From contig WQWL01000009.1 in assembly GCA_009785345.1 (NCBI GenBank), forward strand, positions 1 to 53,495: a stretch of DNA of 53,495 bases, given 5' to 3'. Source of the stretch: Oscillospiraceae bacterium (GTDB lineage Bacteria > Bacillota > Clostridia > Oscillospirales > Oscillospiraceae). This document shows positions 3,506-39,372 of the stretch, in pieces. A model generated the notes under the pieces. The model did no database searches, was not told the origin of the DNA, and saw only the letters and a list, made by a program, of their open reading frames with translations. Position 1 is the stretch's first letter; every line of letters begins with the position of its first letter. The translations under genes and the position numbers were made by a program.

Positions 3506-4288
3506 TTGAATATTATATTATTAAGCTTACTTGCCGGAGTAATAGGGATGGGACTTGGTGCAGTGCTTACTGCGATTTTTGGAACAAAAACCGACAAAAT
3601 GACAAGTATATTCTTGTCATTTGCCGGTGGCGTTATGTTGAGTATTGTTTTTCTAGAGTTGATTCCGGAAGCAGTTGAACTGTCAAATATACCTATTTCG
3701 ATAATTGGACTTGTTGTGGGTGTTGTTATGGTCTTTGTGCTCAATAACATTATTGATCGGATTTCAAACAAAAATGGCGATAAAGAAATTCATGAGTCAT
3801 TTGCAGAGTTTTTCCATTCGAATGATGTTATTGCGAGGAAAAAAAGCATGTTTCGTTCCGGCATTATTATGCTTGTTGCTATTGGTTTACACAATATCCC
3901 GGAAGGCTTGGCTATGGGCGCAGCTGGGCAGTATGACGCTGCTCTAGGTTTTACAATTGCGATTCTCATTGCGTTACATAATATCCCGGAAGGAATGGCT
4001 GTTGCTGTTCCGTTAAATGTTGGTGGGGTATCAAAGATGAAGTCAATAATTATTACTGCATTAGTAGGTGCAACAACTATTATTGGTGCAGTAATTGGTG
4101 TATTGGTTGGTGGGATTTCTGAAATAGCAGTAGGGATTTCATTTGCAATTGCGAGTGGTGCAATGTTGTATGTCGTACTAGCTGAAATATTACCGCAATC
4201 GATAATGATGAGCAAAAACCGCATGCCAACAGTATTTGCAGTAGTTGGAATAATTGTTGGAATGTTGTTTATTGCGATTGTAGCGTGA
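3506..4288 (+). CDS. ZIP-family divalent metal transporter (ZupT-like)
   Basis: A 260-residue polytopic protein of the ZIP family, which imports Zn, Fe, Mn or related divalent ions. About eight hydrophobic helices are visible, with a cytoplasmic His/Asp-containing loop (KEIHESFAEFFHSND, about residues 93-107). The paired metal-site signatures HNIPEG appear twice (VAIGLHNIPEGLAMG and IALHNIPEGMAVA), as in helices 4 and 5 of ZupT. Length is normal for bacterial ZIPs. The start is TTG 3506, with a perfect AGGAGGT at 3492-3498. It is monocistronic and lies behind a tandem DtxR/MntR-like operator, so uptake of iron, manganese or zinc under metal limitation is the likely role. The specific ion cannot be read from the sequence. 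Confidence 0.88.
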   Translation: MNIILLSLLAGVIGMGLGAVLTAIFGTKTDKMTSIFLSFAGGVMLSIVFLELIPEAVELSNIPISIIGLVVGVVMVFVLNNIIDRISNKNGDKEIHESFAEFFHSNDVIARKKSMFRSGIIMLVAIGLHNIPEGLAMGAAGQYDAALGFTIAILIALHNIPEGMAVAVPLNVGGVSKMKSIIITALVGATTIIGAVIGVLVGGISEIAVGISFAIASGAMLYVVLAEILPQSIMMSKNRMPTVFAVVGIIVGMLFIAIVA

Positions 4289-4323
4289 GAATCTGGTTCT
4301 TTGGAATTTTAACAAATATACTA

Positions 4324-4387
4324 AATGACCACCCCTTGTCATCATAATTGTTTCATACATAATGAATTGATGAAGGGGGTGGTCATT
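4324..4387. terminator. Long inverted repeat between convergent zupT-like and lacI-like genes
   Basis: AATGACCACCCCTT (4324-4337) is complementary to AAGGGGGTGGTCATT (4373-4387) with a single bulged G, and shorter pairing (TCATCA/TGATGA) continues inward. Placed between convergent genes it could terminate transcription in both directions, although neither side has a strong T tract. The right arm, followed by AAT and ATG 4391, is the same sequence found as the ribosome binding region of several genes here. The reading frame from ATG 4391 is only ten codons. Confidence 0.5.
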
Positions 4388-4404
4388 AATATGTGCAGAC
4401 GCTG

Positions 4405-30343: not shown

Positions 30344-30372
30344 TTGACAACCCTATGCAAATCGTTTATTAT
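30344..30372 (+). promoter_or_regulatory. Promoter of the ylxM-ffh operon
   Basis: TTGACA (30344-30349), exactly 17 bases, then TATTAT (30367-30372). Transcription should begin near 30379, giving a leader of about 167 nucleotides before the ylxM start codon. Confidence 0.75.
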
Positions 30373-30378
30373 GTATTA

Positions 30379-30545
30379 GGTGTCAAGCAATAATGCTTTA
30401 AGGGGTATAGTATGAATAAATTCATACTATGCGAAGTATGTGCCAATTGTGATTATTGGAATCGCAATTAATGCACGAAAATGACCATACCTTTCATGGT
30501 CGTTTTATCAAGCTTAATGATTACAGTAAAGGAATGGTCATTAAT
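30379..30545 (+). promoter_or_regulatory. Structured leader RNA of ylxM-ffh, candidate translational switch
   Basis: P1 is a perfect 10-bp stem with loop TAAA (30407-30430). P2 (30440-30476) pairs GTGC with GCAC and AATTGTGATT with AATCGCAATT around loop ATTGG, with a C opposite AAT as an internal bulge. Immediately after comes GAAAATGACCATACCTTT (30477-30494). Its AAAATGACCAT can pair with the adjacent ATGGTCGTTTT, or AATGACCAT-ACCTTT can pair with AAAGGA-ATGGTCATT (30528-30542), the ribosome binding region of ylxM. The two pairings exclude each other. The thiN leader has the same plan. The ligand or factor is unknown. Confidence 0.6.
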
Positions 30546-30854
30546 ATGACTGACCAAACGCTCATAAAGACAATGTTGTTTGACTTTTACGGAGAAACAC
30601 TCACCGACAAGCAACAAGAGTACTACGACCTGTATCATAACGATGACTTATCACTATCAGAGATAGCAGATAGCGCAGGCATTTCTAAGCAGGGAGTACA
30701 TGATATTATAGTACGTGCTGAGAAGAAGCTTATGGAGCTTGAGCAGAAAACAGGTATAATAAACAAGTGGAGCGAAACACGAGCAAAGTTAGAGCAAGAT
30801 ATTTCTAACGGAGCAATGGTTTCAGAAGCCGTACAGGATTATTTTTTACTGTAA
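30546..30854 (+). CDS. ylxM: YlxM/p13-like helix-turn-helix protein
   Basis: A 102-residue protein of the YlxM family, which accompanies ffh in Bacillota and stimulates or modulates signal recognition particle function. A sigma-70 region 4-like helix-turn-helix is seen at residues about 20-65 (LTDKQQEYYDLYHNDDLSLS then EIADSAGISKQGVHDIIVRA), followed by a helical tail. ATG 30546 was chosen because the conserved family sequence begins at MTDQTLIKTMLFDFYGETLT; the 30 codons upstream in frame belong to the structured leader. It lies 21 bases before ffh in the same operon. Confidence 0.92.
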   Translation: MTDQTLIKTMLFDFYGETLTDKQQEYYDLYHNDDLSLSEIADSAGISKQGVHDIIVRAEKKLMELEQKTGIINKWSETRAKLEQDISNGAMVSEAVQDYFLL

Positions 30855-30875: not shown

Positions 30876-32225
30876 ATGGCGTTTGAAAGCTTATCAGAAA
30901 AATTAAATGCCGCATTCAAAAAGCTACGCGGAAAAGGACGACTCAAGGAAGCCGACATAAAAGAAGCAATGCGTGAAGTACGCCTTGCTTTGCTTGAAGC
31001 AGATGTTGGATTCAAAGTAGTGCGTGATTTTATAAAGACAGTCAGCGAGCGTGCAGTTGGCAAAGATGTACTTGAAAGTCTTACACCTGCACAAATGGTT
31101 ATAAAGATAGTTAATGAAGAACTTTGTGCATTAATGGGATCAGAGAATGCGAAAATTACCATTTCATCAAAACCGCCAACAGTAATCATGCTTATCGGGC
31201 TTCAAGGTGCAGGTAAAACAACAAATGGCGCAAAATTGGCCGGTTACCTAAGAAAGAATAATAGTAAAAATCCACTTCTGGTCGCATGTGATATCTACAG
31301 ACCGGCAGCGATACAGCAATTAAAAACAGTAGGTGGTCAGCTTGATATTCCAGTTTTTGAAATGGGAACAGCAAACCCTGTAAACATCGCGAAAGCTGCG
31401 ATAGCGCACGCAAATAAAAATGGAAATGACCTGGTAATTCTCGATACGGCCGGACGACTTCATATAGACAATGACCTTGTTGATGAACTAAAGCAAATTA
31501 AAGCAGCAGTCAATCCAACAGAAATATTATTAGTAATTGACGCTATGACAGGACAAGATGCTGTGAATGCTGCAACTGCATTCAATGATGCACTCGGTAT
31601 TGACGGCGTTATACTAACAAAGTTAGACGGTGACGCACGTGGTGGTGCAGCACTTTCTGTTAGAGCAGTCACAGGTAAGCCAATCAAATTTTCAGGTACA
31701 GGCGAAAAGCTTGACCAAATCGAACCATTCCATCCGGACCGTATGGCATCACGGATTTTAGGAATGGGTGACGTGCTGACGCTGATCGAAAAAGCCGAAC
31801 TGGCTTTTGATGAGAAAAAAGCACAAGAATTGACAGAAAAACTGATGAAAAATCGGTTTACATTATCCGATTACTACGAACAGTTGACACAAGTCAGATC
31901 AATGGGCGGTCTATCAGATATCGCAGGAATGCTTCCGGGAATGGATGCAAAAGCATTGGCAGGAGCATCAGTCGATGAAAAAATGCTCTCAAAAACTGAA
32001 GCGATAATTCTTTCGATGACAGTGCATGAGCGCGAAAACCCATCTATTCTTAACAGCAGCAGGAAAAAACGTATAGCAGCAGGAAGTGGCACAGCTGTTG
32101 TTGATGTCAATAGACTACTCAAGCAATTTGAAGCTATGCAAGCGATGACAAAACAGATATCCAAAGGCAAAATGCCCGCAATGTTCGGAGGAGGCAAAGG
32201 CAGGAAAGGTTTATTTGGAATGTAG
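30876..32225 (+). CDS. ffh: Signal recognition particle GTPase Ffh
   Basis: A 449-residue SRP54 homologue that binds signal peptides and 4.5S/scRNA and delivers ribosomes to FtsY. The N domain (residues 1-90, ALLEADVGFKVV) is followed by the GTPase: G1 GLQGAGKTT near residue 107, DIYRPAAIQQL, G3 DTAGRLH, G4 TKLDGDARGG. The methionine-rich M domain (residues 300-449) carries GxLPGM (GMLPGMDAK) and the RNA-binding SRKKRIAAGSGTAVVDVNRL segment, ending in a Gly/Lys-rich tail. ATG 30876 has AGGAAAC upstream. It is the second gene of the ylxM-led operon. Confidence 0.97.
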   Translation: MAFESLSEKLNAAFKKLRGKGRLKEADIKEAMREVRLALLEADVGFKVVRDFIKTVSERAVGKDVLESLTPAQMVIKIVNEELCALMGSENAKITISSKPPTVIMLIGLQGAGKTTNGAKLAGYLRKNNSKNPLLVACDIYRPAAIQQLKTVGGQLDIPVFEMGTANPVNIAKAAIAHANKNGNDLVILDTAGRLHIDNDLVDELKQIKAAVNPTEILLVIDAMTGQDAVNAATAFNDALGIDGVILTKLDGDARGGAALSVRAVTGKPIKFSGTGEKLDQIEPFHPDRMASRILGMGDVLTLIEKAELAFDEKKAQELTEKLMKNRFTLSDYYEQLTQVRSMGGLSDIAGMLPGMDAKALAGASVDEKMLSKTEAIILSMTVHERENPSILNSSRKKRIAAGSGTAVVDVNRLLKQFEAMQAMTKQISKGKMPAMFGGGKGRKGLFGM

Positions 32226-38541: not shown

Positions 38542-38721
38542 TGATACAATGCCTTGAGAAAAATATCAAGGGAGCATGATGTCATAAGTTTGAATAAATT
38601 CAAACTTACAATGTGCCAATTTGCTCTCCCTGCGGGAAACCGCAAATTAATGCACGAAATGACCATCCCCTTATTTATGGTTGTTTTGTGGCTAGGTATC
38701 GCAAAAGGAATGGTCATAAAT
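38542..38721 (+). promoter_or_regulatory. Extended -10 promoter and structured leader RNA of thiN
   Basis: TGATACAAT (38542-38550) is an extended -10, placing the start near 38557. The leader repeats the ylxM plan: P1 is a perfect 10-bp stem with loop TAAA (38585-38608); P2 (38613-38655) has GTGC/GCAC, the same C-versus-AAT bulge and AATTTGC/GCAAATT, with an inner CCC/GGG hairpin. Then GAAATGACCATCCCCTT (38656-38672) can pair with ATGGTTGTT (38677-38685) or with AAGGAATGGTCAT (38705-38717) at the thiN ribosome site. No TPP riboswitch consensus is present. Confidence 0.6.
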
Positions 38722-39372
38722 ATGAACACAAAAAACCGTTGTTATATAGTTGGAGCAGGGGAGTTTCATGAAAATGAATTGCCACAGCAGAGCGATTATG
38801 TTATAGCTGCTGATGGCGGTTATTCTGTACTGGCAAAACTTAACATTGTGCCTGATATGCTCATTGGAGATTTCGATTCACTCAAAAAAGTACCAAATCA
38901 TCCCAATATTATCACGTGTCCCGTTGAAAAAGATGACACAGATATGATGCTTGCAGTTCGGCAAGGCTTGGATTTGGGATATAAAACATTCATCATTAAT
39001 GGTGGACTTGGGGGCAGACTTGATCACACTCTCGCAAATATCCAAATCTTGAAATATCTTGCTGAAAAAACTGCACGCGGAACGCTAATTGGGAACAACG
39101 AGAGAATTACAGTCATAAATAATGATGAAATAACAATAGACTCAAATATAGCAAAAGGACACACATTATCAATATTCAGTATGGGGGATACTGCAGAGGG
39201 TGTAACACTCAAAGGTTTGAAATACTCACTGGAAAACAAGACGCTAACTAATGATTATCCGATTGGTTGCAGCAACGAATTCATAGGTCAACCTGCGACT
39301 ATATCGGTGAGAAACGGTACATTAATTATAATTACACAGCAGAAAGGGAGCAAAGCATATGCAAGAAATTAA
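38722..39372 (+). CDS. thiN: Thiamine pyrophosphokinase
   Basis: A 216-residue enzyme that makes thiamine diphosphate from thiamine and ATP. Motifs include YVIAADGGYSVLAKL, PDMLIGDFDSL, CPVEKDDTDMMLAVRQGLDL with the metal-binding DDTD, and GGLGGRLDHTLANIQIL, followed by a C-terminal beta-sandwich. Length is normal. ATG 38722 is the family start; the in-frame codons upstream are the structured leader. Its 3' end overlaps the HAD gene by 14 bases. Confidence 0.94.
   Translation: MNTKNRCYIVGAGEFHENELPQQSDYVIAADGGYSVLAKLNIVPDMLIGDFDSLKKVPNHPNIITCPVEKDDTDMMLAVRQGLDLGYKTFIINGGLGGRLDHTLANIQILKYLAEKTARGTLIGNNERITVINNDEITIDSNIAKGHTLSIFSMGDTAEGVTLKGLKYSLENKTLTNDYPIGCSNEFIGQPATISVRNGTLIIITQQKGSKAYARN

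Follow-up and report, generated by a model that had tools for sequence, protein, structure and literature searches.

In translational riboswitches and RNA thermometers, an anti-Shine-Dalgarno (anti-SD) strand masks or frees the Shine-Dalgarno sequence (SD). Group IIC introns, for their part, insert behind terminator stems. Among small repeats, BOX/RUP/SPRITE (PMC3049150) and MITEs (PMC10969869, PMC2229807) are described as short, structured and multi-copy sequences which need no coding capacity, and whose insertion is inferred from empty sites. Pneumococcal BOX repeats can extend leaders and lie between T-boxes (PMC3049150), and a MITE review (PMC10969869) contains no mention of Shine, ribosome binding or start codon. 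The TAACTGA repeats of Beggiatoaceae are 7-nt direct repeats with little SD character which lie over the SD position, just before the start codons of many unrelated genes, ribosomal-protein genes included; both a translational role and a mobile-element spread are discussed by the authors (PMC4679880). The TAACTGA repeats (PMC4679880) and BOX/RUP/SPRITE (PMC3049150) are the closest in print to the element presented here among the open-access literature searched, where no description of a repeat splitting an SD from its start codon was found.

The element was recognized in a 53,495-nt stretch of DNA of an Oscillospiraceae bacterium (contig WQWL01000009.1, referred to as "the window"). The best reading of its high copy number, patchy distribution, empty sites, start-codon position, own SD and covariation is a mobile element which replaces the signal that it splits. 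With a probability of roughly 0.7, it is a dispersed, non-coding element of ~135 nt, inserted in sense between a native SD and its start codon, and carrying its own SD in a two-state fold. Like BOX/RUP/SPRITE and MITEs, it is short, structured and multi-copy, does without coding capacity, and its insertion is deduced from empty sites; unlike them, it lies in sense to an open reading frame (ORF) in 88/106 matches, between SD and start, with its own SD, anti-SD and decoy, and with neither terminal inverted repeat nor target duplication. It shares with the TAACTGA repeats (PMC4679880) the position just before the start codons of many unrelated genes, those of ribosomal proteins among them, and differs from them in being a folded sequence of 135 nt with its own SD. 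As in riboswitches and thermometers, its anti-SD strand would mask or free an SD, yet it has neither conserved ligand core nor regulon, and about a hundred matches occur in one genome. A sub-class located at terminators uses the same kind of target as group IIC introns; unlike these, the element is only ~140 nt long, no reverse transcriptase is found in the high-copy genomes, and no Rfam family is above threshold.

The copies in the window

Three copies of the element are found in the window (Table 1). An earlier note on this DNA had described leaders of the same plan before ylxM and thiN, and each part that it described is present in both. The three differences between their P1 arms are compensated in the opposite arm, as it had claimed, and its proposal of an anti-SD strand with two competing partners, a nearby strand (here the decoy) and the ribosome site, is supported by the comparisons below. 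The interval that it proposed, 30379-30548, does hold the element, but the first 29 nt (30379-30407) are native ylxM leader and not repeat; and its "two leaders", although both real, understated a family with 106 covariance-model matches at E≤0.1 in the same genome.

Table 1. Features of the window related to the dispersed element (positions of the window, 5' to 3').
Feature	Position	Strand	Evidence or remark
Promoter-like TTGACA-17-TATTAT of ylxM-ffh	30344..30372	+	Consensus match only, 11/12 positions
Native ylxM leader dyad GTGTCAAGCAATAATGCTTTAA	30380..30401	+	Conserved in relatives
Native SD-like AAGGGG, left of the element	30400..30405	+	Read from sequence
Dispersed element, ylxM-ffh copy	30408..30542	+	Covariance-model match, E 1.2e-19
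P1 hairpin	30406..30431	+	Arms 30406-30416/30421-30431, loop TAAA; outermost pairs may be flank
P2 hairpin, GTGC-C-AATT...AATT-AAT-GCAC	30440..30476	+	
Central anti-SD strand AATGACCATACCTTT	30480..30494	+	
Decoy strand ATGGTCGTT (P3, putative "on" hairpin)	30496..30504	+	
Element's SD strand AAAGGAATGGTCATT (P4 partner, putative "off")	30528..30542	+	
ylxM (UPF0122)	30546..30854	+	PF04297, 1.5e-24
ffh (SRP54)	30876..32225	+	
Native SD-like AAGGGAG upstream of the thiN copy	38568..38574	+	Read from sequence
Dispersed element, thiN copy	38586..38718	+	Covariance-model match, E 5.2e-24
P1, thiN copy	38585..38608	+	
P2, thiN copy	38613..38655	+	
Anti-SD strand, thiN copy	38658..38672	+	
Decoy strand, thiN copy	38677..38685	+	
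SD strand, thiN copy	38704..38718	+	
thiN (thiamin pyrophosphokinase)	38722..39372	+	PF04263/PF04265
Third copy, degenerate	4268..4393	+	Weak match, E 0.0045

The boundaries of the element were placed where similarity between copies is lost. Before ylxM, the conserved dyad and the SD-like AAGGGG precede the element, whose 5' arm of P1 includes an ATG (30412-30414). The promoter-like pattern occurs three times in the window, versus 1.9 expected in shuffles. The dyad (GTGTCAAG...CTTTAC, window 30380-30401) is possibly an operator, perhaps for YlxM itself; YlxM matches the sigma-70 region 4 helix-turn-helix model. The anti-SD and SD strands of the third copy have changed together (AATGACCACCCCTT opposite AAGGGGGTGGTCATT); its P1 is not evident, and no long ORF lies behind it. 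The window also contains a cobalamin riboswitch (RF00174, 45294-45470, + strand, 51.3 bits).

Copy number and distribution

A BLAST search of 30379-30548 against its own genome, in which 40 of 122 candidates were scored, gave at least 56 rows, the query among them, and at least 42 of these fell below 1e-6. With 36 copies (alignment A1) as its basis, a covariance model produced 106 matches at E≤0.1 in this 3.5-Mb assembly, 66 of them at E<1e-6, all to one ~135-nt element. The copies in A1 had been filtered for ATG or GTG at their 3' end, and this alignment is unusable for start-codon counts because the filter demanded these codons. Such a search had been suggested in the earlier note, and it did reveal further homologues with covariation.

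The element is patchily distributed, and the per-genome counts in genus, family and order are lower bounds because few candidates were scored. Within the genus, the extremes are G001, G003, G011 and G017, where none was found, and G010, with at least 51 copies. In the family, matches at E≤1e-5 occur in at least 36 of 200 sampled genomes, the own one counted, and in at least 27 of 106 genera; in an order-wide sample matches were present in at least 6 of 295 genomes, again counting the own genome, one of them belonging to another family. Distant copies were searched with a second model, built from alignment A2 (see below); 55 matches were found in genome G112.

A pattern scan of genome contig and viral contig collections found no carrier, although very near records may be absent from them. 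The relatives of Ffh belong mostly to Oscillospiraceae and other Clostridia MAGs (best identity 80%), and no element was found in the 55 of 80 Ffh-relative loci scanned, one match at E 0.83 being taken as chance. The comparison with Rfam, also proposed by the earlier note, showed no family reaching its threshold on the element. For the window copies, Rfam 15 gave no match at gathering score and, with the cut-off relaxed to E≤5, a single match by chance (snR97, 18.6 bits versus a gathering score of 100); for 20 loci with distant copies, nothing on the element was above threshold. One distant copy (L323) is overlapped by STnc180 below threshold (26.3 bits versus 50, E 0.25), a chance match.

Proposed insertion between the native SD and the start codon

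Most of the own-genome matches (88/106, and 58/66 among the best) lead in sense into a start codon and an open frame. The test asks for a start codon at the 3' end, followed by at least 40 codons in the same sense or by a frame open to the contig edge; of sense positions drawn at random from the window, 17.7% reach the 40 codons. The remaining 18 of the 106 have no downstream ORF, some of them being well preserved. The eight misses among the best 66 include two copies cut by contig ends (L020, L021), and L016 starts at a contig end. Others of these eight are well preserved but have no long ORF (L010, L011, L025); they may be recent insertions at pseudogenes, or their starts may be misplaced. 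A start codon is located at the match end, or at most 3 nt from it, in all 61 copies fetched from twelve other genomes; matches ending in NTG are favoured because the model includes the start codon, so the ORF test is the fairer measure. Furthermore, 36 of the 43 distant copies fetched are of the start-codon class (class 1; 15 genomes), and 32 of these have a start codon followed by at least 35 open codons.

The element's SD lies ~13 nt before the start, and the distance from AAAGG to the start is 18 nt in 87/117 copies. On the other side of the element, an SD-like 5-mer is present within 24 nt left of the junction in 70/111 copies, versus 11/111 control windows further upstream, and no such 5-mer is found in the other 41. 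For the distant class-1 copies, the corresponding values are 25/36 and 6/36. With a native SD-like 5-mer to the left of 70/111 copies, most copies of the element therefore come between a native SD and its start codon.

Empty sites are seen in the same genus. Of 18 other genomes searched, 17 yielded a YlxM and 13 a ThiN, and none of these 17 ylxM and 13 thiN relatives has the element in the 110 nt upstream. One ThiN relative (L172, in G005) contains one in-frame TAA. The ylxM dyad (GTGTCAAGYAWTANTRCTTTAC-like) is located 10-82 nt before the start in 16/17 relatives, versus 144 nt in the window. We propose that, in many genes, the element has inserted in sense behind the native SD and ahead of the start codon; the native SD being parted from the start, the gene would depend on the SD of the element.

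A proposed two-state fold around the SD

The structure was evaluated in alignment A2, formed by 54 copies that we chose among 117 collected (15 own and 39 from 11 other genomes). The proposed "off" structure (P1, P2 and P4) comprises 37 pairs with 91.4% paired cells, a covariation of 0.263 (versus 0.107 shuffled and at most 0.055 slid) and 27 pairs changed on both sides (versus 14.0 shuffled). The SD helix P4 alone has a covariation of 0.228 versus 0.085 shuffled, with double changes in 9/14 pairs. The decoy hairpin P3, which is rich in G-U pairs, reaches 0.229 versus 0.164 shuffled, with double changes in 6/12 pairs; on two measures it is weaker, as 39/500 shuffles attain its six double-change pairs and 24/500 its pair types, whereas none of the 500 attains its score or its number of double-change cells. 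Covariation is thus strong for P1, P2 and the SD helix and weaker for the decoy hairpin.

In a swap test, the anti-SD strand of each copy was paired with its own partners and with those of unlike copies. The duplex with the copy's own SD has a mean energy of -16.5 kcal/mol, versus -11.9 kcal/mol with the SDs of unlike copies, the own SD being better in 97/115; the own decoy is likewise paired better in 87/115 copies. Folds with the SD masked and with the decoy masked are within 3 kcal/mol of each other in 53/108 copies (mean -37.2 for "on" and -38.3 for "off", standard deviation of the difference 5.6 kcal/mol). The central strand reads GCAC-AAA-TGACCAT-CCTT, and its full pairing with the decoy costs the base of P2; the P2 base and P4 therefore stand together against P3. 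In the widely diverged sequence of genome G112, a strong SD, GGAGG (ATGGAGGATT), still lies opposite an anti-SD (AATCCTCCAT) and a decoy.

As in SD-sequestering control, the SD pairs with an upstream anti-SD in a helix maintained by compensatory changes, and an alternative pairing that would free the SD also exists, with weaker covariation. From its base pairing, the element appears to work like SD-sequestering translational control. In the putative "off" state, the anti-SD strand would pair with the element's SD while the P2 base is closed; in the "on" state, it would pair with the decoy lying between, as a local hairpin. Both states may alternate in the cell and set translation.

Probable mobility, terminator sites and remnants

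Neither terminal inverted repeats (a mean of 2.7 of 12 terminal positions match, n=107) nor target-site duplications (best excess over shuffled pairs 0.085, at all the offsets and lengths tried) were found, and the transposition event is therefore something that we infer rather than read. The high-copy genomes G000 (only 86% complete), G010 and G005 contain no reverse transcriptase (RVT_1); Y1_Tnp is absent from G010 and G005, with three in G000. Neither enzyme correlates with copy number, and both were rejected as mobiliser: the high-copy genomes lack the reverse transcriptase of a group II intron-mobilised element, and do not consistently hold the Y1 transposase of an IS200/IS605-derived one. 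With MITEs and IS-derived elements it has in common the dispersed copies and the empty sites, but not the terminal repeats or the target duplication. In this sense, it spreads like a small interspersed repeat, yet fails the defining features of MITEs and of metabolite riboswitches. The element probably moves, or moved recently.

Besides the start-codon class, a second one is found just behind the stems of intrinsic terminators. In nine distant copies (eight genomes), selected by a motif of our own with a mismatching candidate (L319) left out, the element's 5' T-run follows a stable stem at a distance of 0-3 nt in 9/9 cases. The mean z of this stem versus mono-nucleotide shuffles is -4.9, compared with -0.23 for the upstream flanks of class 1 (n=145). 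P1, the P2 motif and a long P4 are all retained in terminator-class copies, with no SD seen in most. Four of seven also pass the start-codon/ORF test, which therefore cannot by itself separate the classes. T-box, TPP, FMN and fluoride elements were found by Rfam in the loci of distant copies, and three of the nine copies (L317, L320 and L321) immediately follow a T-box, a fluoride riboswitch and a TPP riboswitch, at the T-run of their terminators. In this distant sub-class, the 5' end of the element would give a T-run to the native terminator stem, analogous to the replacement of the SD.

Shortened copies were also recovered. All of the 20 weak matches fetched run up to a start codon, 19 of them with an ORF of at least 77 codons behind it, and 16 measure no more than 70 nt and are made up of the SD-bearing 3' part; having been picked mainly for shortness, they show that remnants exist and not how frequent they are. 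Short ones that precede an intact gene have neither P1 nor P2, and the anti-SD of many was unrecognisable by eye (not counted), while it is kept in some (e.g., L210, L225, L226, L227). The genes behind remnants encode, according to Pfam, an acyl-carrier-type protein, Obg and CoaE. That remnants keep the 3' SD part fits a host that relies on the replacement SD and not on the switch, as expected if this SD is all that it needs.

This decay pattern is the best argument for an alternative that we consider unlikely: a mobile element whose RNA or single-strand structure is kept only for its own movement, with anti-SD, SD and decoy exerting no control over the host gene. Besides the intact genes behind remnants devoid of P1, P2 and often of a visible anti-SD, it accounts for host genes that are unrelated, and for a terminator class which keeps the P1-P2-P4 plan without an SD. 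However, the frequent G-U pairs in P3 point to RNA rather than to DNA, and the diverged G112 copies still oppose an SD with an anti-SD and a decoy.

Reading frames in the element

An NTG is located in the P1 arm of 102/111 copies (81 TTG, 12 GTG and 9 ATG) and of 30/36 distant class-1 copies. This codon raises the alternative of a leader-peptide attenuator, in which ribosomes coming from the native SD would read an ORF starting at the NTG and free the downstream SD. Copies in tandem or behind a remnant have been observed (L014, L015, L189, L190, L194, L199); in tandem copies the SD of the upstream element faces the NTG in the next P1 at the spacing seen at genes, as such an attenuator would have it. 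Some copies are moreover open throughout: in L015 (2069-2207), L023 (2066-2204) and L026 (2054-2196), a frame runs from P1 to the gene start, which it overlaps or abuts, but this is not general. A first count, in which the frame from the P1 NTG passes or stops over the ATG at the P2 foot in 84/102 copies, was spoiled, as the sequence of P1 alone suffices to close the other two frames. When counted fairly, from behind P1 to the anti-SD, frames 0, 1 and 2 are open in 63, 49 and 58 of the 102 copies, with no preference. A coding leader was rejected on this basis, as the conserved reading frame of a leader-peptide attenuator is not found. Terminator-class copies also show (by eye) an NTG in P1, where no start codon is needed, and we hold the attenuator to be rather improbable.

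A same-strand open frame of at least 60 codons ends at most 60 nt upstream in 41/117 copies (a count made without a control comparison), and a location within operons is thus possible for many. The "on" state might be favoured by translation that reaches the element, either from the native SD or from an upstream operon gene.

Downstream genes

The genes behind the element are diverse. Those confirmed by Pfam include rpoC (RNA polymerase beta'), HisS, LeuS, enolase (eno), SecY and the ribosomal proteins L24 and L9, together with a GTPase with a KH domain (Era-like) and a class II tRNA synthetase (AspS-like). A comparison of 117 copies, a sample which includes, e.g., 20 of the 51 G010 matches, gave five pairs with similar downstream proteins, only one of them clearly orthologous (parA, L114 and L120, in G004 and G016, 92% identical). 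No common pathway was found among the downstream genes compared or identified by Pfam. Even positions ahead of essential genes thus appear to be accessible to the spreading element.

The housekeeping and translation genes among these targets, and the two states lying within 3 kcal/mol in 53/108 copies, would suit a global leader sensing a condition such as temperature or ribosome availability, and kept because many genes gain the same response. We give this little credence: the distribution is patchy, with close relatives at zero (G001, G003, G011, G017), targets are little shared, and copies that have lost the switch persist.

That the element is a new class of metabolite riboswitch, or one resembling T-boxes, with a regulon under its control is very improbable: two mutually exclusive structures around the SD do covary in these 5' leaders, but the downstream genes have no pathway in common, one position among the copies compared is clearly orthologous, no Rfam family is above threshold, and the apical part of P2 varies in length and sequence, with no conserved unpaired ligand core in the alignment and therefore no visible ligand pocket. 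The unrelated downstream genes mean that the element is not a metabolite regulon, and gene content and the variable P2 top led us to reject this class, none of whose features (known class, one pathway, unpaired ligand core) was found. The undescribed RNA switch advanced in the earlier note therefore stands as a structured leader with competing pairings and covarying homologues, and finds no support as a ligand riboswitch or shared regulon; the "mobile RNA" that it mentioned in passing is the option favoured by the evidence.

Significance

The two target types invite a bolder reading, which we put forward tentatively as possible and no more: an undescribed kind of mobile element, inserting in the middle of a two-part RNA signal with ends that imitate the missing halves, and recognising its target at the level of the transcript or translation complex rather than through a DNA motif. 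At SD/start sites, the 3' end would supply an SD and the 5' end perhaps a start codon; at terminators, the 5' end would supply a T-run and the 3' end a stem. If true, the element could thereby invade essential genes almost without notice, and each of these would acquire, and come to rely on, a translational switch built into it.

In the usual view, bacterial small repeats survive by landing where they are harmless. On the contrary, the element occupies a site where insertion should silence the gene, be it rpoC, secY, enolase or those of ribosomal proteins and tRNA synthetases, and brings a replacement signal with it. If this holds, it would represent a route to many structured leaders without adaptation, and its copies would form a naturally occurring library of bistable SD switches, rich in covariation. 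It would also raise a testable question, namely what picks out an SD/start-codon pair or the stem of a terminator as a target, be it an enzyme or some other process.
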